In this document: piece by piece, positions 5,391 through 59,134 of the stretch
Layout: the number at the start of each line of letters is the position of its first letter
Numbering within the stretch: the first letter of the stretch is position 1
Assembly (NCBI GenBank): GCA_024349765.1
Contig: AP026074.1
Coordinates: 124,001 to 188,000 of the forward strand
Direction of reading: 5' to 3'
DNA length: 64,000 nucleotides
DNA from: Streptomyces nigrescens
Lineage (GTDB): Bacteria; Actinomycetota; Actinomycetes; Streptomycetales; Streptomycetaceae
Notes under the pieces: model-generated
Told to the model about the DNA's origin: nothing
Databases searched by the model: none
What the model saw: the letters and a program-made list of their open reading frames with translations, nothing else
Translations under genes and position numbers: made by a program

Positions 5391-6716
5391 TCAGCCGACC
5401 GCGGCGGCCGGGGCGCCCAAGGCGCCGGTCAGCGCGGCGAAGGCGTGCTCGGCCGTCTCGTCGGAGTGCACCGCGCGGTCCCACACCATGCGCAGCTGCA
5501 GTTCCGGACCCTGGGTGACGGACACCGCGAAGGGTCCGCGTACCGCTCTGCCGTCGATGTGGATCTCCCGGCCGTCGACGCCGCCGAGCCGGAGCGGGGG
5601 CCGCCGCCGGGCGTCGTCGACGGTCAGCAGTCCGTCGAGGCCGCCCCGCCAGCCGGACCCGGCGGCCCGTGCCGCGTGCACCACCGCGTCGAACGGCGTG
5701 CCGGCGTGGTCCAGGTCGTCCCACCACGCGCCGGCCGTCTCCTCCGGTGTCACCGGGCCCGTGCCCGTCGCGGTGGGGAAGACCACGGTGTTGAGGAAGC
5801 AGCCGAGCACCGGTGCGGCGCCGGACGGACGACCGCCCCACGGGTAGCCGAGCGGCACCACGTGCCCCTTCCCGTACAGCACCTCCGCGGCGGCGCGGCA
5901 GGCGTCCAGCAACTGCGGGAAGGACGCCCCGGTCTCCGACGCGGGTATCCGCCGCTCGGCCGAACCGCTCGGCAGCCCGTCCCGCGCCAGGCTCTGCGGC
6001 CCGTTCGCGGACCGCGCCCGTTCACCCACCGCGCGGAGCCGGTCGCCCCAGTACGCCATCGCCGCCGGCGAACCGGCCCGGTCCTCCGCGGCCAACTGCA
6101 GGAGCACGGCCTCCCGGTAGGCGTCCAGCTCGGCGGCGGCGTCGGCGGTCGACGGGCGGTCCGCCGCGCGGTCCTCGGCGTAGGCGGCGCCCAGCTCCTC
6201 GACGATCCGGTTCAGCGACTGGCCGTCGCACGCGGTGTGCTCCAGCACGACGGCGAGCACCTCCCGCGGCCCCTCGGCGTCCGGCCCGTCCGCTCCCTCC
6301 GCGCCGTCCGCCGTGAGGAACAGCCGCAGCGGCGCCCCCTGCGGGGCCCAGTCGCGCAGGACCCGCCGCAGCGCGGCCGCCGCGTCCTCCCCCGGCGCCC
6401 GGGAGACCCGTGTCACCGGCACCTCCGGCGGCCCCAGCCGGAGCACCGGGGTACCCCGCAGTACCTCAGGACGGGCGCGCAGCACGGGATGCAGTGCGGC
6501 CAGGCGCCGGGCGGCCGCGGCGAGGCGCGCGAGGTCCACCGTGCCGCGCGGGAAGGAGAAGAACATCGGCACCAGGTCGGGCCGCCCGGCCGGGTCCATG
6601 GCCCGTACGAGGACGAAGCGCCGCTGGGCACCGGTGACCGGCAGCAGGGCCGGTGCCCCGTCGCCGTCGTCGAGCCGGCGGAAGCGGGCCAGGTACTGGC
6701 TCGTGATGCTGTGCAC
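5391..6716 (-). CDS. Free-standing condensation-domain protein
   Basis: About 441 residues, resembling an NRPS condensation domain with no adenylation or carrier domain attached. The catalytic motif reads E159-H-T-A-C-D164-G: the second histidine and the Asp-Gly of HHxxxDG are kept, while the first histidine is Glu. Later features typical of the fold (LGCFLNTVVFPT, TPFDAVVHAARA) are present, so the domain is complete. GTG (protein starts HSITSQYLARF) was chosen because the fold begins there and AGAGAGG lies just upstream; a longer reading frame upstream is compositionally non-coding. It sits between the exporter and the synthetase on the same strand. It probably condenses or releases a peptidyl or acyl intermediate. 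Confidence 0.85.
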   Translation of the reverse strand: MHSITSQYLARFRRLDDGDGAPALLPVTGAQRRFVLVRAMDPAGRPDLVPMFFSFPRGTVDLARLAAAARRLAALHPVLRARPEVLRGTPVLRLGPPEVPVTRVSRAPGEDAAAALRRVLRDWAPQGAPLRLFLTADGAEGADGPDAEGPREVLAVVLEHTACDGQSLNRIVEELGAAYAEDRAADRPSTADAAAELDAYREAVLLQLAAEDRAGSPAAMAYWGDRLRAVGERARSANGPQSLARDGLPSGSAERRIPASETGASFPQLLDACRAAAEVLYGKGHVVPLGYPWGGRPSGAAPVLGCFLNTVVFPTATGTGPVTPEETAGAWWDDLDHAGTPFDAVVHAARAAGSGWRGGLDGLLTVDDARRRPPLRLGGVDGREIHIDGRAVRGPFAVSVTQGPELQLRMVWDRAVHSDETAEHAFAALTGALGAPAAAVG

Positions 6717-6804: not shown

Positions 6805-8139
6805 CTAACCGCGTCCGGCGGCCTCGACCGGCTGGCCGGCACCGGCGGCGCCGCTCTCCTCCGACGCTTCGTCGATGACCGGCAACTCGCCCTCCCCGAG
6901 CGGGAGTTCACGCATCCGCCGCAGCGGTGAGAGCAGCAGCGGCAGGGGTACGAGGAGGAATCCCACCGCGCACCACACCAGCGCCACACGGGCGCCGAAC
7001 GCATCGGCCAGGGCACCGCCGGCCAGCGCGCCGAGGGGCAGGGTGCCCCACATCACGAACCGCAGGGTGGCGTTCATCCGGCCGAGCAGCCCGGGCGGGC
7101 AGACCGCCTGCCGGAAGCTGACCTGGGCGACGTTGTAGACGACCGCCCCGAAGAAGACCACGCCGGAGCCGAGCGCGAACAACGACGCTCCCACGCCGCG
7201 CCCGGACAGCGGCCACAGCACCGCGAACGGGCCGGTGACCAGTGCGGACAGCCAGATGATCCGGGCCCGGCCGAGCCGTGCGGCGAGCGGGCCGGCGCAC
7301 AGGGCGCCCGCCAGGCCGCCGAGCGCGGCGGCGGACAGCACCAGGCCGACCGCCGCGGGTGCCAGCCCCAGCTCCCGCACCAGGAAGACGGACTGGGTGG
7401 CCATCAGCATGGCGGAGAAGAGGTTGGCCAGCCCGGTGGCCGTGGCGATCACCCGGAGCAGGCGGTGGCCGAACACGAAGCGCAGCCCCTCGCCGACGTC
7501 CTTGCGGAGCGAGGCTCCCGGTGCGCGTTCCGGCAGGCTCTCCGGCCGCTTGATGCGCCACAGGAACAGCGCGGAGAGCGCGTAGCCGCAGGCGTCCGCC
7601 ACGATGGCCAGCGGCGCGCCGAGCAGCTGCACCAGTCCACCGCCGAGCCCGGGGCCCGCGACCTGCGCCGAGGAACGGACGGTCTCCAGCGCTCCGTTGC
7701 CGGCGACCAGCTGGTCCTTGGGCAGCAGTTGCGGTACGAAGCTCTGGTGGGCGACGTCGAAGAAGACCGTCGCCACACCGGTGACCAGGGCGACGACGTA
7801 CAGCTGGGCCATCGTCAGCACCCCGGCGACGGCGGCCAGGGGGATGCTCGCCATGGCCACGGCCCGCACCACATCGGCACGGATGAGCAGCGGCAGCTTC
7901 CGCATCCGGTCGACCCAGGCCCCCGCGGGCAGACCGACCAGCAGGAACGCGGCGGTCTCGGCCGCGGTGAGCAAACCCACCTGGAACGCGGGCGCGTTGA
8001 GCTGGAGTACGGCGACGAGGGGCAGCGCGACCAGGGTGACCTGGGAACCGAAGAGTCCGGCCGCGGCTCCGGTGAGGAGCAGGCGGAACTCGGGCATGCG
8101 CAGCGGGCCGCTTGTGGCGGCTCGGGGTCTGACGGGCAT
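6805..8139 (-). CDS. MFS exporter, EntS-like
   Basis: A 444-residue major facilitator superfamily protein with about 12 hydrophobic segments. The loop-2 motif region (AGAWVDRMRKLPLL) is typical of the DHA3/EntS-type exporters often found in peptide and siderophore clusters. The N-terminus is short and polar, and the C-terminus is an acidic tail. It is the first gene of the minus-strand set that continues into the condensation protein and both synthetases, so export of the cluster's peptide is the natural inference. No iron box was found upstream, so a siderophore role is not supported by regulation. Confidence 0.88.
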   Translation of the reverse strand: MPVRPRAATSGPLRMPEFRLLLTGAAAGLFGSQVTLVALPLVAVLQLNAPAFQVGLLTAAETAAFLLVGLPAGAWVDRMRKLPLLIRADVVRAVAMASIPLAAVAGVLTMAQLYVVALVTGVATVFFDVAHQSFVPQLLPKDQLVAGNGALETVRSSAQVAGPGLGGGLVQLLGAPLAIVADACGYALSALFLWRIKRPESLPERAPGASLRKDVGEGLRFVFGHRLLRVIATATGLANLFSAMLMATQSVFLVRELGLAPAAVGLVLSAAALGGLAGALCAGPLAARLGRARIIWLSALVTGPFAVLWPLSGRGVGASLFALGSGVVFFGAVVYNVAQVSFRQAVCPPGLLGRMNATLRFVMWGTLPLGALAGGALADAFGARVALVWCAVGFLLVPLPLLLSPLRRMRELPLGEGELPVIDEASEESGAAGAGQPVEAAGRG

Positions 8140-47845: not shown

Positions 47846-49753
47846 ATGAGCAGCGCGCGGCCGATCGCTTCCTCCCCCGGTGACGCGCAGGGCGAGGGCG
47901 GGGGAAAGAAGACAGCGCGTCCTTCCGAGCGGCCTCCCTCCCTGCGTTCCCCGGAACCCATGACGGACGGCATCGTCGCGCCCGCTCCGCCCGTGCCCCT
48001 GCGCGATGTGTTCCGGCGCTTCTGGCCGTACACGCGCGGCGGCCGGCGCTGGCTGGTGGTGATCCTGGCCTTCATCGTGCTCGACCCGGTCGTCGACGCG
48101 GCAGAGATCTGGCTTTTCAAGATCGTCATCGACGACATGCTGGTTCCGCGCAATCTGCATCTCCTGCTGCCGATCGCCCTCGCCTACCTCGCGCTCACGT
48201 TCTTCGCCGGCGTCCTCGCCTTCGCCGACGAGGTGACCTCCACCTGGGTCAGCGAACGCTTCCTGCTGGCCCTGCGGTCCGATCTCTTCCGCCACGTCGA
48301 AGGTCTGTCCCTCGGATTCTTCGAGCGGCGGCGGCTCGGGGACGTGCTCTCCCGCGTGACCGGGGACGTCGATGCGGTCGAGACGTTCCTGCTCTCCGGG
48401 ATCGTGGACGCGATCGCCCAGGTGCTGCGGCTCGGGATCTTCCTCGGTGTGCTGTTCTACCTCCGGTGGGACCTGACCGTCCTCGCCCTCCTCATCGGGC
48501 CGCTGTTCTGGTGGACCGCCCGACGCTTCTCCCGGCGGGTGAAGGCCGCCTCGCGGGAGCGGCGGCGCCGCAGCGGCTCGGTCAGCGCGGTCACCGAAGA
48601 GGCCCTCGGCAACATCGTCCTCGTGCAGGCGTACAACCGGCAGCGCTGGGAGCACGGCAGGTTCGAGCGCGAGAACCTCGGCCGGTTCCGGGCGGCCATG
48701 GCGTCGGCCCGTATCGGTGCGGTGTACGCCACGGTCATCGACGTCATCGAGCTGGCCGGCGCGCTGCTCGTGATGGGCCTGGGCACCTGGGAGCTGACCC
48801 AGGGCCGCCTCACCCTGGGCGGCCTGATGGTCTTCCTGACCCTGCTGAGCCGGCTCTACAGCCCGATCCGCGGAATGTCCGGCCTCAGCAACACCTTCTA
48901 CTCGGCGTCCGCCGCCGCAGAGCGGATCATCGAACTGCTCGACCAGCGGCCCCAAGTCGTCCAGGCCGCGACCCCGCGCGAACTCGGGCACGCCCGCGGT
49001 GAGGTCCTGTTCGACGACGTCTCCTTCCGGTACCCGGGGACGACCGAGCCGGCCCTCTCCCGCGTCTCCTTCGCCGTGGCCCCCGGCGAGATCCTGGCAC
49101 TGGTGGGGGCGAGCGGAACCGGGAAGTCGACCGTCGCCAAACTGCTGCTCCGCTTCTACGACCCGGACCACGGAACCCTCCGCCTCGATGGGAACGACCT
49201 TCGTGATCTGCGCCTGGACGACCTACGGAACAACGTCGCCGTACTGCTCCAGGAGACCCTGGTCTTCCACGGCACGGTGCGCGACAACATCGCCTACGGC
49301 CGTCCCGACGCGAGCGAGGAAGACATCGTCGCGGCAGCTCACGCCGCGGACGCACACGGCTTCATCAGCCAACTTCCCCAGGGCTACGACACGGTGGTGG
49401 GCCAGCGCGGCCGGCTGCTCTCCGGCGGGCAACGACAGCGTCTCGCCATCGCCCGTGCCATGATCCGCAACGCTCCGCTCCTCATCCTCGACGAGCCGAC
49501 CACCGGCCTCGACGCGGAATCAGGCCGGCGCATCCTCGAACCACTGCGCCTGCTGATGAGCGGACGCACCACGATCCTGATCTCCCACAACCTGCTCACC
49601 GTCCGCGACGCCACCCAGATCGTGCTCCTTGAGGACGGCCGCATCGCCGACCAGGGCACGCACGGCCAGTTGCTCAGCCGCAGCGCGGCGTACGCCCGGC
49701 TGTACCGGCTGCACGTCCCCGACGACACACCGCTGGCCAAGGTGCCGTCATGA
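47846..49753 (+). CDS. ABC exporter half-transporter (permease-ATPase fusion)
   Basis: 635 residues. A hydrophilic N-terminal tail of about 60 residues precedes six membrane helices of the type I exporter fold (about 65-350) and a C-terminal ATPase. Visible ATPase motifs are Walker A GASGTGKST, Q-loop LLQETLVF, signature LLSGGQRQRLAIARAMI, Walker [13 protein letters not shown] and H-loop ISHNL. Start options are the first ATG or a Met 38 codons later (MTDGIVAPAPP). Its stop overlaps the start of a protein-kinase gene (ATGA), so exporter and kinase are made together. It probably exports a lipid, peptide or drug. Confidence 0.93.
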   Translation: MSSARPIASSPGDAQGEGGGKKTARPSERPPSLRSPEPMTDGIVAPAPPVPLRDVFRRFWPYTRGGRRWLVVILAFIVLDPVVDAAEIWLFKIVIDDMLVPRNLHLLLPIALAYLALTFFAGVLAFADEVTSTWVSERFLLALRSDLFRHVEGLSLGFFERRRLGDVLSRVTGDVDAVETFLLSGIVDAIAQVLRLGIFLGVLFYLRWDLTVLALLIGPLFWWTARRFSRRVKAASRERRRRSGSVSAVTEEALGNIVLVQAYNRQRWEHGRFERENLGRFRAAMASARIGAVYATVIDVIELAGALLVMGLGTWELTQGRLTLGGLMVFLTLLSRLYSPIRGMSGLSNTFYSASAAAERIIELLDQRPQVVQAATPRELGHARGEVLFDDVSFRYPGTTEPALSRVSFAVAPGEILALVGASGTGKSTVAKLLLRFYDPDHGTLRLDGNDLRDLRLDDLRNNVAVLLQETLVFHGTVRDNIAYGRPDASEEDIVAAAHAADAHGFISQLPQGYDTVVGQRGRLLSGGQRQRLAIARAMIRNAPLLILDEPTTGLDAESGRRILEPLRLLMSGRTTILISHNLLTVRDATQIVLLEDGRIADQGTHGQLLSRSAAYARLYRLHVPDDTPLAKVPS

Positions 49754-50829
49754 GCCGTACGCCGTCCCCCGAGCCCCCGCCGCTGGCGGCCGGAGCGAAC
49801 GTGGCCCCGGGCTACGAGGTCCTCGCCCACCTCTGCCGCACCGGCTGGCTGGACCTCTACGACGCCTGGAGCCAGGAGCGGGAGTGCCGATGCGTGGTGA
49901 AGGTGCTGCGTCCGGCCCGACGGGGCGAGCGGAGGCTGCGCGAGCGACTGCTGCAAGAGGGCCACTGGCTCCAGACCTTCACCCACCCGCACCTGGTCCG
50001 CGCCTACGAATCCGGTGAAACCCCGGAACCGTACGTCGTATTGGAGACGCTCACCGGCGCGACCCTGGCCCACCTCCTCGACCGCCGCCGGCGCCGCCTG
50101 GCCACCGACGACCTCACCCTGCTCGGCCTGCACCTGTGCTCGGTGCTGCACTACCTGCACGGCCAGGGCCTGCTGCACCTGGACATCAAGCCGTCCAACA
50201 TCGTGGTCGGCTGTCGGCGCGCAATGGTCCTCGACCTGAGCATCGCCCGCCCTCCCGGCTCCGCCTCGCCGGGCATCGGAAGCTTCTGCTACCTCGCCCC
50301 CGAGCAGGCCCGCGGCGGAACGCTCACCCCCGCGACCGACGTCTGGGGCCTCGGCAGCACGCTGTACGAGGCCGCCACCGGCGATGTCCCCTTCGACGTC
50401 CCCCTCGACGACACCGAGACCGATCGGTACCCCCAGCTCGACGAACGAGCACCGTCCGTCAGCACACGCCGGCGACTGCCCCACACCCTCACCGCGGCGA
50501 TCGACAGCTGTCTGGCCCCCGAACCGGGTGACCGGCCCTCCATGGCCCAAGTCACGGCAGCGCTGGAGGGCTTGCTGCCGTACGGCCGCCGCGGACCGCC
50601 GGTCGACGCATCGCCGACGATCATGAACCATTCACCGGGCTCGTTACGTACAACCAGACATCAGACACGAGTTACCGAACACGAATTACCAGTCACCAGT
50701 CACCAACTACCAGTCACCAACTACCAGTCTCCGGACACGGTTCGCCGAGTGCCGGGTGCGTCCGATGCCTCCGACCCGGCGAGCTCCGGGAGGCACCGAT
50801 GTCTTCTCACACAGTTGAGGCTTCGCTGA
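49750..50829 (+). CDS. Soluble Ser/Thr protein kinase coupled to the ABC exporter
   Basis: 359 residues, Hanks-type kinase with no membrane helix. Motifs are the lysine in CVVKVLRP (Lys51), the catalytic loop HLDIKPSN (Asp145, Lys147, Asn150), metal-binding Asp162 in DLS (DFG replaced) and LAPEQA. The glycine-rich loop is degenerate (LCRTGWLDLYDAW has one Gly). The C-terminal tail is unlike the rest: lower GC, two TTA codons (50644-50646 and 50686-50688) and a short tandem repeat. Both the TTA codons and the overlap with the exporter suggest developmental control of transport by phosphorylation. Confidence 0.88.
   Translation: MSRTPSPEPPPLAAGANVAPGYEVLAHLCRTGWLDLYDAWSQERECRCVVKVLRPARRGERRLRERLLQEGHWLQTFTHPHLVRAYESGETPEPYVVLETLTGATLAHLLDRRRRRLATDDLTLLGLHLCSVLHYLHGQGLLHLDIKPSNIVVGCRRAMVLDLSIARPPGSASPGIGSFCYLAPEQARGGTLTPATDVWGLGSTLYEAATGDVPFDVPLDDTETDRYPQLDERAPSVSTRRRLPHTLTAAIDSCLAPEPGDRPSMAQVTAALEGLLPYGRRGPPVDASPTIMNHSPGSLRTTRHQTRVTEHELPVTSHQLPVTNYQSPDTVRRVPGASDASDPASSGRHRCLLTQLRLR
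50701..50728 (+). repeat. 14-bp tandem repeat in the kinase tail
   Basis: CACCAACTACCAGT occurs twice in direct tandem (50701-50714, 50715-50728) and is flanked by related CCAGTCACC fragments from about 50688. It encodes part of the low-complexity tail of the kinase. Confidence 0.7.
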
Positions 50830-55796: not shown

Positions 55797-57791
55797 TTAG
55801 TAGTCGTCCTCGCCGTAGAACTCATGGCGTTCGCTGATGTGCTCGTAGAGCTCGTCGACGAGCGGGGACTCGTCGGCCCACCAGGGGGTACGGGCGGCGG
55901 GTTCAGCGGAGCCGCCGGTGACCAGCGAGGGATCGACGGCGTCCATCCACGGGAACGCCTCCTCGTCGTCGAGTTCCTCGGCATCGATCTCGCTGAGCCG
56001 GCGGATCATGGGGACGGGCACGGTCGACTGCTGGTGCCGCACCATCCAGGTGTTGCGGAAGAAGTCGAACTGCAGGTGGTAGCAGTCGTCCGATTCGCTG
56101 AAGACGATCGGGGGGACGAGGAAGTGCGCCGCACCGACCGTGGCCGCGACGTCGATGTAATTGTCGGGAGTCCCGCCGGAATTCCAGCACGCGGCGAAGT
56201 TCACGGGCGTCAGCGGGTCTTTGCTGAGGATGTGTATCTGGTTGCCCCGGATCACGAACTTTTCCGGGTCGAGGACCACGTCCTCGCCGAGCATCAGGAT
56301 CGGCGCCGGCATGATGTGCGCCTTGGCGAAGGACTGAGCGCGCTCGTAGAGATCGACGATCTCATCGAAACGCGTGGCGTCGAACCTGCCGAAGTCATGG
56401 AACGGGCAGCACACGTTGTCCGTTTCTTCCCCATCCGGGAAGAAGGCCGACTTGTCGAACGACGACACGGGCGAGGACGACGGTATCGACGAGTCCGAGG
56501 GACCCGGTGAGCCCGATTTCTCGGAGTACTTGGCATTGAGGAAGGCGGGAATCCATGTGCCGTCCGGGCCTTCCGCCTCGACCACCGCCGTGTCGCACAG
56601 ATCGCGGAACGCCGTGTCGCCGAGCTTGCAATTGAAGTAGTCGAGCAGCGTGATCGCGGCGCATTCGGCCAGCGACAGGGTGTCGCTCTTCGGGAACCAG
56701 AAGTCGTAGCCGTTCGCGAGGAAATGCACGCCACGGAACTGCTTGTGGACGAAGGGCTCGCCGGTCTCTCCGGAGGTGAGGCCGTTCCAATGCGCCGCGG
56801 CGACCTGGTTGTAGTAGGCGTCGGCATGGCGGGCGAGCTCGGGAGCGAAGACGCTTTCGCCGGTCCAATAGCAGGCCTTGCTGAACAGCGCGCCGATCTC
56901 GGGATCGTGCGTGACGTCCGGTTCGCTGAAGACGAGTTCGGTCCGCAGGAAGACTTTGCGGCCGTCGCGGAAGGGCGCGCCCTCGTGCTCGTACCGCTGG
57001 TCGAAGATCACGCAGGTGAGGGGCTCGATCTCGGAGACCGCCGGCCCACCGACCAGGTCCAGGGCGGGATCGGCGGAGCCCCCGGTGAGGTAGAGCAGGA
57101 CGGTGTAGCGGGAGACATGTCCGCGGGCGGCGTCGTAGTAGGGCGTATCGCGGTGGTGGTGGAAGTTGCTGTCGCCGGGCTCGAAGCGATTGCAGCGGAA
57201 CACCGGATTCACATGCGAGAAGCCGTCGAGCGTCGCCTCCGGCATCGACGCCGTCACTGCCTTGGTGAGCGCCTCGGCGAGCAGCGCCGAGTGGAAGATG
57301 AAGCGTTCGCCGCCGCGCGAGGAGGCGTTGAGCGGCGGGACGTAGAGGTTGAGCGAGTCGAGCCGTTCCAGGCCGGCGCGGGTGGCATCCGGCAGCCGCA
57401 ACGACAGCGCGTACGCGTCCTGCCCGAGCTCGACGGGCTCGGCGAGCTCCAGATCGAGGGGGACGTCCGCAAACAGGTGGTCCAGCGGAACGATGTTCTC
57501 GAACGTACGGAACGACAGCTCGCGGGGATCGACGAAGACGGCGGCCAGGTGCGGCGCGCCCTCGCTGGGCCGGGCGAACAGCTCGCGCACATCGGCGTCG
57601 ATGCGCTCGGCGTCGACGAAGCGCACCGACTTGTGGCGCGCGGTGGGGTGCCAGGAGACCGACAGCCCGTCGAGCGTCGCTGCGGGCTCGGTGTCGGTCG
57701 CGTCGACCTCGGCGCGGTAGCGGGCGACCTCTTCGCCGGTGGCCTCACCGGTCGAGAGGGCGAAGAATCGGTCGCGGAGTTCGGCGCTCAC
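55797..57791 (-). CDS. Large 2OG-Fe(II) oxygenase-domain protein, unknown role
   Basis: 664 residues. The N-terminal half contains a prolyl-4-hydroxylase-like jelly roll with the iron triad His213-x-Asp215 (NFHHHRDTPYYD), distal His269 (DQRYEHEG) and a basic residue at the 2-oxoglutarate position (Lys279 in RKVFLRTEL). An acidic Ser/Pro linker (about 425-450) leads to a C-terminal region of about 200 residues with two cysteines (CCPFHDFGRFDATRFDEI) and no recognisable family. The start overlaps the stop of a leucine-rich-repeat gene by ATGA, so the two proteins are co-translated. Hydroxylation of a protein or peptide is a reasonable guess; the substrate is unknown. Confidence 0.75.
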   Translation of the reverse strand: MSAELRDRFFALSTGEATGEEVARYRAEVDATDTEPAATLDGLSVSWHPTARHKSVRFVDAERIDADVRELFARPSEGAPHLAAVFVDPRELSFRTFENIVPLDHLFADVPLDLELAEPVELGQDAYALSLRLPDATRAGLERLDSLNLYVPPLNASSRGGERFIFHSALLAEALTKAVTASMPEATLDGFSHVNPVFRCNRFEPGDSNFHHHRDTPYYDAARGHVSRYTVLLYLTGGSADPALDLVGGPAVSEIEPLTCVIFDQRYEHEGAPFRDGRKVFLRTELVFSEPDVTHDPEIGALFSKACYWTGESVFAPELARHADAYYNQVAAAHWNGLTSGETGEPFVHKQFRGVHFLANGYDFWFPKSDTLSLAECAAITLLDYFNCKLGDTAFRDLCDTAVVEAEGPDGTWIPAFLNAKYSEKSGSPGPSDSSIPSSSPVSSFDKSAFFPDGEETDNVCCPFHDFGRFDATRFDEIVDLYERAQSFAKAHIMPAPILMLGEDVVLDPEKFVIRGNQIHILSKDPLTPVNFAACWNSGGTPDNYIDVAATVGAAHFLVPPIVFSESDDCYHLQFDFFRNTWMVRHQQSTVPVPMIRRLSEIDAEELDDEEAFPWMDAVDPSLVTGGSAEPAARTPWWADESPLVDELYEHISERHEFYGEDDY

Positions 57792-58687
57792 ACGCTCCTC
57801 CAGTAGCTGCGCAGGGTGGTCGGGAGCTGAGGGGCGGAGGCGAGCTTCTGCACGCCCGCCTCGGAGACGTCGTCGCGGTACAGCAGGAGGCGCTGGAGCG
57901 AGCCGATGAACGGTGCCGACAGCAGGGCGTCAGCGCCGTCCTCGCCGATGTCGTTGTACCGGAGGTCGAGCTCGATGAGATTCGTCAAACCGCTCAGCGA
58001 GCGCACGCCCTCCGCGGTGACCGCGTTGCACTGGAGGTGCAGGCGCCGCACCGCCGCGAATTGCGGGGATGCGATGAGGGCCGCCAGACCGGAGTCGCCG
58101 ATGGCGCAGTACCGCAGGTCCAGCGTCTCGATCCGGCCGCTCCCGGTCGCGGCCGCGAGGGCCTCGGCACCGGGGTCACCCATGCGGAAGTACGAGAGGT
58201 CGAGGGCGCTGAGCCGGCCGAGGTCGACGCTCGCGAGACCGTCCGCCTCGATGGGCGGCGGCATGAGCGGTCCGTTCTCGTCCCAATGCTCTTCTTCGTG
58301 CCCCCACTCCTCGCCTTCCGGGTCATCACCCGCCTTGATCCGCAATGCGGTCACGAAGGGGCCTTGCAGGGCCTCTGCTATCAACGCGGGTGCCTCGTCG
58401 GACCAATCGACGGCGACCTTCGTGGCGAACCCGTGCCGACGCGCCTCGACGGATACCCCCGACGGCAACTCCGCGTCCCAGCTGTCCTGGTGCTTCTCCG
58501 ACAACAGCTGTATTTTCGACGCCAGTTGCTCGCGCTCGGCGCTGCCCGCCACTCGGGAACGTCGTTCCCATTCGATCAACTTCCCCCGGACATCGCCTCG
58601 TTCGTGCAGCGCGTCGGCATAAGCGCGCCACGCCGCAACGTCGTCGGGATGCTCGCGCAGTCTCTGTTCCAAAGCCGTGGCTTCCAT
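57788..58687 (-). CDS. Leucine-rich-repeat protein with TIGR02996 N-terminal domain
   Basis: 299 residues. Residues about 5-45 (LEQRLREHPDDVAAWRAYADALHERGDVRGKLIEWERR) match the TIGR02996 repeat-companion domain. About five ribonuclease-inhibitor-type leucine-rich repeats follow (LSALDLSYFRMGDPGAEALA, IETLDLRYCAIGDSGLAALI, VRRLHLQCNAVTAEGVRSL, LIELDLRYNDIGEDGADALL). ATG chosen with AGGGTG 8 nt upstream. Such repeats bind proteins, so it could present a partner to the co-translated oxygenase. There is no signal peptide. Confidence 0.85.
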   Translation of the reverse strand: MEATALEQRLREHPDDVAAWRAYADALHERGDVRGKLIEWERRSRVAGSAEREQLASKIQLLSEKHQDSWDAELPSGVSVEARRHGFATKVAVDWSDEAPALIAEALQGPFVTALRIKAGDDPEGEEWGHEEEHWDENGPLMPPPIEADGLASVDLGRLSALDLSYFRMGDPGAEALAAATGSGRIETLDLRYCAIGDSGLAALIASPQFAAVRRLHLQCNAVTAEGVRSLSGLTNLIELDLRYNDIGEDGADALLSAPFIGSLQRLLLYRDDVSEAGVQKLASAPQLPTTLRSYWRSV

Positions 58688-58867: not shown

Positions 58868-59134
58868 TCACTTCCACCAGTACTTCACACCGCGGTGGTG
58901 TGAGCAGGTGCCGCTGGAGTGGCGCGAGTAGGAGTGGCTGTTGTCCTTGCAGCGCGCGGTCTCGTAGCGGTCCGCCGGCCTTTTTCCGGCCTTCCACCCG
59001 CATACGCCGGTGGTGTGGTGCACGCACCTGTGCGCGCTGTTCGTGCGCGGCAGCGTCGTCGACGCTTCCGCCGTGCCGGCGGCCCCGAGAACCAGGGCAA
59101 CGGCAGCCGCAGCGGCGGCGATATGGCTCTTCAA
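58868..59134 (-). CDS. Secreted DUF3761 small protein
   Basis: 88 residues. A signal peptide (about 1-24, ending AGTAEAS) is followed by the DUF3761 pattern: ETARCKDNSHSYSRHSSGTCSHHRGVKYWW. Four cysteines could form two disulfides in the exported protein. The start is TTG, supported by a GGGGGG tract at about 6-nt spacing and by the correct signal-peptide length. Function unknown; no neighbour suggests one. Confidence 0.85.
   Translation of the reverse strand: MKSHIAAAAAAVALVLGAAGTAEASTTLPRTNSAHRCVHHTTGVCGWKAGKRPADRYETARCKDNSHSYSRHSSGTCSHHRGVKYWWK

Follow-up and report, generated by a model that had tools for sequence, protein, structure and literature searches.

A translationally coupled leucine-rich-repeat protein and prolyl-hydroxylase-like oxygenase in Streptomyces nigrescens, a candidate bacterial protein-hydroxylase pair

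To our knowledge, few protein hydroxylases have been described in bacteria, and we know of no leucine-rich-repeat (LRR) partner of the bacterial EF-Tu prolyl 4-hydroxylases. The human collagen-processing enzyme P3H1-CRTAP-PPIB works with partners that are themselves non-catalytic, and CRTAP is not an LRR protein. The gene pair considered here lies on the minus strand of a 64,000-nucleotide stretch of Streptomyces nigrescens DNA (contig AP026074.1, positions 124,001 to 188,000; hereafter the window) and encodes an LRR protein together with a 664-aa protein predicted to be an oxygenase dependent on Fe(II) and 2-oxoglutarate (2OG). For the Ofd1/Tpa1 oxygenases, sections of the published account describe a partner, Nro1/Ett1, that binds the oxygenase C-terminal domain and has been suggested as a possible substrate-recognition module, while Nro1 binding inhibits the binding of Ofd1 to Sre1N (PMC4396695). 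Among the matches listed in searches of open-licence papers, none appeared to describe such an LRR-oxygenase pair.

Coupling and co-inheritance of the two genes

It is strongly supported that the two genes form one unit. At all 31 intact actinobacterial loci (the window, L004-L006, L009-L033, L072 and L073), the LRR gene stands directly upstream of the oxygenase gene, the two overlap by 4 bp, and the sequence GGAGG or GGAGA is found exactly 5 nt before the oxygenase start, within the LRR codons TGG AGR. Since every one of these junctions keeps both the overlap and the embedded ribosome site, the pairing is confirmed to lie far beyond chance. The set counts duplicates once (G302 is the same as L010, G434 as L032 and L071 as L017) and retains some near relatives, L072 being close to L073 and L016 and L022 coming from one strain. 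The arginine codon at the junction is AGR at 31 of 31 loci, against 46 of 893 arginine codons (5.2%) elsewhere in the same LRR reading frames, a comparison that covered up to 280 codons per frame. Such a layout reads as translational coupling under selection. The codon choice shows a constraint from the embedded ribosome site, so the conserved W-R end of the LRR protein need not reflect protein function, and W296 and R297 were dropped as candidate functional residues.

An initial annotation, made from the sequence alone, had described a joined, co-translated pair at 55797..58687. The pair, its coordinates and the assignment of an LRR protein and a 664-aa protein to the minus strand are right, and the search of actinobacterial genomes for conserved adjacency which it proposed found the neighbourhood kept throughout rather than lost. 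The overlap it gave as ATGA had to be corrected to GTGA, because the window oxygenase starts with GTG, as it does at 22 of the 31 loci, the remaining nine using ATG. The features of the pair are as follows.

57788..58687, minus strand: LRR subunit gene, 299 aa, ATG start
55797..57791, minus strand: oxygenase subunit gene, 664 aa, GTG start
57788..57791, minus strand: overlap of oxygenase start and LRR stop, here GTGA; 4-bp overlap seen at 31 of 31 loci
57797..57801, minus strand: Shine-Dalgarno sequence GGAGG, contained in the final codons of the LRR gene (TGG AGG) and 5 nt ahead of the oxygenase start
58574..58681, minus strand: TIGR02996-like head, LRR-subunit residues 3-38, sub-threshold at 26.2 bits
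57824..58213, minus strand: five leucine-rich repeats, about residues 159-288 (Pfam LRR_6)
56922..57221, minus strand: predicted prolyl 4-hydroxylase-like double-stranded beta-helix core, oxygenase residues 191-290, with H213, D215, H269, K279 and R283
55992..56903, minus strand: oxygenase C-terminal region, fold unrecognised, residues 297-600
56397..56411, minus strand: CCPFH motif (C461, C462, P, F, H465), putative zinc ligands with C399 and C535
55800..55991, minus strand: oxygenase C-terminal tail, variable and mostly acidic, residues 601-664

The two proteins also appear to have been inherited together. Distances among the LRR proteins correlate with those among the oxygenases (r=0.85 over 28 loci, with L009, L013, L033 and L034 left out), and none of 2000 permutations gave a value as high. 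This shows an absence of partner swapping rather than contact between the proteins, given that the shared descent of neighbours alone would yield the same correlation. Thirteen actinobacterial genomes, a part of those found to carry the family, gave 14 strong matches to the LRR profile, all of them at known pairs, one genome having two; what remained were partial repeat matches only. In the plasmid collection, the LRR query retrieved three records, identical to the three retrieved with the oxygenase. Hence no unpaired full-length LRR relative was found in these 13 genomes or in the plasmid collection. Two copies of the pair, divergent from each other, are present in Streptomyces sp. ODS25 (L016 and L022). 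A remnant at L074 (genome G896, 5652-6418) retains LRR residues 1-43 close to oxygenase residues 483-663, an arrangement consistent with one deletion through both genes.

The predicted oxygenase and its repeat-protein partner

The oxygenase chemistry of the 664-aa protein is well supported by sequence comparison and modelling, and the intact His-x-Asp, His and Lys set noticed in the initial annotation holds across the family. H213, D215, H269, K279 and R283 are identical in all 27 aligned members, which include the window protein and a planctomycete relative that is 45% identical; the strict spacing of the HxD and distal His pattern fits 31 of 32 proteins, the spacing in the planctomycete protein being different. 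K279 stands ten residues after the distal His, which is the position of the basic 2OG-binding lysine in prolyl 4-hydroxylases (P4H). Independently, the family profile matches another planctomycete protein with an E-value of 5.9e-4, and Pfam assigns that protein to 2OG-FeII_Oxy_3 (PF13640). In the alignment to this PF13640 member, the HxD motifs coincide, as do the later histidine and the GRK..LRT segment.

Structure prediction points the same way. An AlphaFold model built on 27 sequences has a mean predicted local distance difference test (pLDDT) score of 62.2, with block means of 62-94 over residues 161-300 and poor ends. Foldseek places its core with prolyl hydroxylases, matching 25 chains at E<=0.001, led by the viral collagen prolyl hydroxylase vCPH (4.9e-6) and with LH3 and P3H1 among the others, and in a viral library the giant-virus 2OG oxygenases lead (5.2e-11). 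Along the predicted strands, a short one holds H213 and is followed at once by D215; H269 sits on one further along and K279 opens the final strand, which is the usual order for these residues. Together with the profile alignment, these fold matches support the P4H-like assignment made earlier. The window protein itself has no match in Pfam or NCBIfam (E<=1), PHROGs (E<=0.1), PADLOC (E<=0.01) or PDB sequences (E<=1), and NAA60, its only PDB profile match, was set aside as chance level (E 1.3). A Pfam scan of 27 members gave four unrelated families matching one member each, the best with an E-value of 0.043.

The C-terminal half, which the initial annotation could not assign, has likewise resisted assignment here. 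Modelled alone it reaches a pLDDT of 60.7, its best Foldseek E-value is 0.27, and no solved structure was matched at E<=0.001; nor was a second beta-helix of the kind present in OGFOD1/Tpa1/Ofd1 recognised in this low-confidence model. It may represent a new fold. Conservation continues beyond the catalytic core: 32 of 134 columns are invariant in residues 292-425, compared with 54 of 181 in residues 111-291, the core region. All 27 aligned members have C399, C462 and C535, and a C-x(0,1)-C-x2-[H/C] motif is present in all 32 proteins, cysteine replacing the histidine in six; the CACxxC form occurs in L019, L020, L029, L032, L072 and L073. Because of these invariant cysteines and the exchange of His for Cys within the motif, the C-terminal half likely holds a zinc site. 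The last 60 residues have a net acid count of at least 10 in 31 of the 32 proteins, the planctomycete protein having 2.

In the partner, the leucine-rich repeats are real (PF13516, LRR_6, 63.3 bits). The TIGR02996 head fared less clearly: the match itself is recovered at an E-value of 5e-6, while its 26.2 bits fall under the NCBI cut-off of 29.05, and 17 of 25 family members scanned match TIGR02996 at E<=0.001. At the same threshold, 23 of the 25 match STM4015. STM4015 and TIGR02996 proteins share sequence with the repeat part and the head of the LRR subunit, although the window protein lies far under the STM4015 cut-off (34.2 against 275 bits) and matches only in part, the best stretch being residues 155-228, inside the repeats. 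No head is recognisable in the LRR genes of L013 and L033. In L009, from Streptomyces sp. NRRL S-337, the head is split over three frames (7107-7255), owing to either sequencing error or decay.

Conservation within the repeats could bear on what this subunit binds. Over five repeats, the exposed concave positions have a mean conservation of 0.83, against 0.71 for the rest of the repeat and 0.89 for the core (Mann-Whitney p=0.022; 25 sequences, with positions that are not independent). Because the exposed concave positions are conserved, the face seems to bind a conserved partner or a conserved substrate, either of which fits, rather than a diversifying one.

Distribution and genomic neighbourhood

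The LRR-oxygenase system is rare. Counting the window's own genome each time, the oxygenase family was found in 1 of 61 genomes of close relatives, 3 of 394 genomes from the class and 6 of 391 from the order, one of the six being the remnant in G896; these sets overlap (G302 sits in two of them), and at most three first-look candidates were scored per genome in the class, order and planctomycete searches. A scan of a genome collection of 84,980 species with two peptide patterns returned 26 loci (L009-L034), a lower bound, of which 25 are actinobacterial and one belongs to a metagenome-assembled genome (MAG) of the Planctomycetota. Three records of the plasmid collection, two from Embleya and one from Streptomyces, carry the oxygenase. 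The nearest relative found of the window pair, in Streptomyces sp. NRRL S-337 (L009), is 91-92% identical. No oxygenase relative was found in phages by tblastn, and two peptide patterns matched 31 stretches in IMG/VR, none of which was confirmed as a relative.

Among 392 planctomycete genomes, only the MAG of L034 has the family, a second match spanning the core alone. The oxygenase relative in this MAG adjoins an LRR gene (L034, 9920-10426) in an arrangement unlike the actinobacterial one, the two genes converging with a 4-bp overlap; the LRR gene extends to within about 10 bases of the contig end and may be incomplete, and tblastn with the window LRR protein did not retrieve it. The 9.2-Mb assembly contains about 20 LRR open frames (16 including this neighbour, plus C755, C65, C240 and C1128), a lower bound given that a first look gave 134 candidates. 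If 8000 genes are assumed, an LRR gene would occupy one of the two neighbouring positions by chance with a probability of about 0.5% or more. As a single case judged after the fact, the neighbour is suggestive.

Neighbours were compared over 30 loci with flanks of 8 kb or less (shorter at L025, L030, L031 and L034, and about 6 kb for L004-L006), using frames of at least 90 aa, shadow frames included, and clusters present in at least three loci. Within the best 40 clusters, the position-fixed neighbours are two sets of genes that occur in separate clades. At nine loci (L019, L020, L027-L030, L032, L072 and L073; 9968-13524 in L019), genes for a double-AAA MoxR-like ATPase and a DUF2201/vWA protein, the latter bearing HExxH and D-x-S-G-S motifs, converge on the pair. 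Both ATPase P-loops were found at eight of the nine, the AAA gene of L072 being split over two frames. These loci fall within one well-supported clade of ten that spans three families, and the tenth, L023 (Nocardiopsis), has no AAA/vWA genes within its flanks. The second set is a DUF6745 gene, upstream of the pair and on the opposite strand, at six loci of a clade of their own, five in Nonomuraea and one in Dactylosporangium (5606-6991 in L018; also L021, L024, L025, L026 and L031).

The window contains no relative of the AAA/DUF2201 genes, and DUF2201 was not found in the window's own genome. A search of 148 genomes from the class, the window's own among them, with the L019 ATPase at E<=1e-30 gave no match, an empty answer that stands without a positive control; DUF2201 was found in 9 of 79 genomes of the class. 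The idea that the AAA/DUF2201 module is a general partner of LRR proteins was rejected: nine DUF2201 places (6 of the 9 genomes) have no LRR or oxygenase relative nearby at E<=1e-3, and at E<=1e-5 the AAA, DUF2201 and DUF6745 query proteins likewise had no relative there. Because DUF2201 places elsewhere lack relatives of both the pair and the module queries, the module beside the pair is, as far as sequence comparison goes, a separate subfamily. PADLOC gave no match at E<=0.01 except a P-loop-region similarity in the AAA protein. ABC transporters recur at eight loci and protein kinases at six, the window belonging to both groups, at scattered offsets, as common families would by chance.

Around the window pair, a small DUF3761 gene (58868-59134) lies just upstream, and a similar small protein adjoins the pair in L009. 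Genes for an ArsR-type regulator and a zinc-type dehydrogenase are also near. At 47846-50829, an ABC transporter gene and the protein kinase gene after it share a 4-bp overlap; both families occur together in L009 as well.

Possible functions and known counterparts

On balance, we lean towards the view that the two proteins are subunits of one Fe(II)/2OG-dependent hydroxylase that acts on protein and has a dedicated LRR subunit. The protein nature of the substrate is what we infer from kinship with P4H enzymes and from the dedicated partner. Coupled translation would be followed by formation of a heterodimer, in which the LRR subunit would bind the oxygenase, perhaps at the C-terminal half that probably holds zinc, while the concave face of the LRR subunit would present one conserved protein substrate. 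The oxygenase could then hydroxylate a side chain (proline, lysine or similar) with 2OG and O2, and remodelling of the enzyme or its substrate may fall to the MoxR-like ATPase and the vWA/HExxH protein in one clade. Tentatively, and going further than we would currently wager, the pair might define a new class of bacterial protein hydroxylase, in which a co-translated LRR subunit guides a P4H-like oxygenase, whose zinc-holding domain would be new, to one conserved cellular protein, a MoxR/vWA machine remodels enzyme or substrate in one clade, and horizontal transfer has spread a system shared with Planctomycetota.

A number of observations weigh against a protein hydroxylase with an LRR substrate receptor. 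That the two genes are translated and inherited together is no proof that the LRR protein receives the substrate, and many P4H-like enzymes act on small molecules. None of the 27 members matches a Pfam 2OG family even at E<=10, overall confidence in the AlphaFold models is low (mean pLDDT 62.2 for the oxygenase and 60.7 for its C-terminal half), and the weaker fold matches include the antibiotic-tailoring enzymes SnoN, KanJ and HygX. On the side of the LRR protein, the concave-face difference is modest and its positions are not independent, the head is disrupted or absent in 3 of 31 genes (L009, L013 and L033), and the conservation of the terminal W-R may merely reflect the ribosome site.

It is therefore important to consider what else the pair could do. 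Instead of receiving the substrate, the LRR protein could regulate the oxygenase, chaperone it or serve as its sensor, much as Nro1 acts as a negative regulator of Ofd1 in fission yeast. We consider this somewhat unlikely, even though a regulator or chaperone role would fit almost as well: strict coupling is just as expected of a partner needed for folding or of an inhibitor, the oxygenase might itself be what the conserved concave face binds, and no finding here separates the two possibilities. The published account of Ofd1/Tpa1 offers, in part, a precedent, the helical-repeat partner binding the C-terminal domain and Nro1 inhibiting Ofd1-Sre1N binding (PMC4396695). That the two genes are merely co-transcribed and act independently is hardly credible. 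Although 4-bp overlaps are common in bacteria, all 31 loci, drawn from several families, share the same overlap, spacing and embedded ribosome site, the 13 genomes and the plasmid collection showed no LRR relative without its partner, and an LRR neighbour is present even in the planctomycete.

Tailoring of a small molecule or peptide natural product appears improbable. The hosts are mostly actinobacteria of antibiotic-producing groups, the distribution is patchy, and the likeness to SnoN, KanJ and HygX would suit such a role; however, no fixed biosynthetic partner emerged among the best 40 clusters over the 30 loci (small precursor peptides fall outside a screen of frames of at least 90 aa), the position-fixed neighbours are AAA/vWA and DUF6745 genes while ABC transporters and kinases occur at scattered offsets, and a dedicated LRR subunit would be unexpected for a small-molecule enzyme. 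A role in conflict or stress defence, the LRR protein sensing an invader or a damaged protein and the oxygenase acting as effector, aided in one clade by the MoxR/vWA module, seems very improbable. The pair is rare and patchy, sits on three plasmids and shows one deletion scar, and MoxR/vWA modules are known from predicted conflict systems, as stated in parts of PMC7159879. Against this, PADLOC yielded only the P-loop-region similarity, and the concave LRR face is conserved, not diversifying. A word find in PMC7159879, PMC10907252 and PMC8195603 showed no link of 2OG oxygenases to conflict systems, and no VMAP gene was looked for here. The MoxR ATPase and vWA gene of the ternary (VMAP) system have no relative in the window and are present at nine other loci.

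Returning to the proposed LRR-guided protein hydroxylase, the nearest working analogue would be Ofd1/Tpa1 with Nro1/Ett1. In the parts of the account drawn on here, the OGFOD1/Tpa1p/Ofd1 uS12 prolyl hydroxylases resemble the pair in domain order, with the catalytic part at the front and a distinct C-terminal domain behind it, and likewise have acidic regions and a repeat protein as a separate partner (Nro1/Ett1; PMC4396695). Their partner, however, is a helical-repeat protein, whereas here it is an LRR protein coupled in translation, and they use an RXS arginine at distal His+12 (Arg230 for His218) in place of the lysine at His+10. The RXS 2OG motif is absent from the window oxygenase, where H269+12 is F281, followed by R283-T284-E285, and for this reason membership in the OGFOD1/Tpa1/Ofd1 family is not claimed. 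PF13640 proteins and the viral vCPH share with the oxygenase subunit the HxD, His and Lys set, the predicted beta-helix core and GRK..LRT at the core end; the subunit differs in lacking Pfam 2OG matches in all 27 members, in some 370 further C-terminal residues and in its dedicated LRR partner. P3H1-CRTAP-PPIB, a complex named in PDB titles, is like the proposed pair a protein hydroxylase with non-catalytic partners. The bacterial EF-Tu prolyl 4-hydroxylases, named in the title of PDB 5v7y and in a reference title of PMC4543633, are P4H-like enzymes that modify a core protein, and, as one bacterial P4H modifies EF-Tu, EF-Tu is a conceivable substrate of the pair as well.

Since the family escapes the curated libraries searched and its partner is fixed by gene architecture, partner, complex and substrate should all be directly testable. 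If the proposal is true, the pair would constitute an LRR-guided protein-oxidation system. Moreover, a small co-translated bacterial pair could provide a clean model for the substrate-receptor question that parts of the published account raise for the repeat-protein partner of Ofd1/Tpa1 (PMC4396695).

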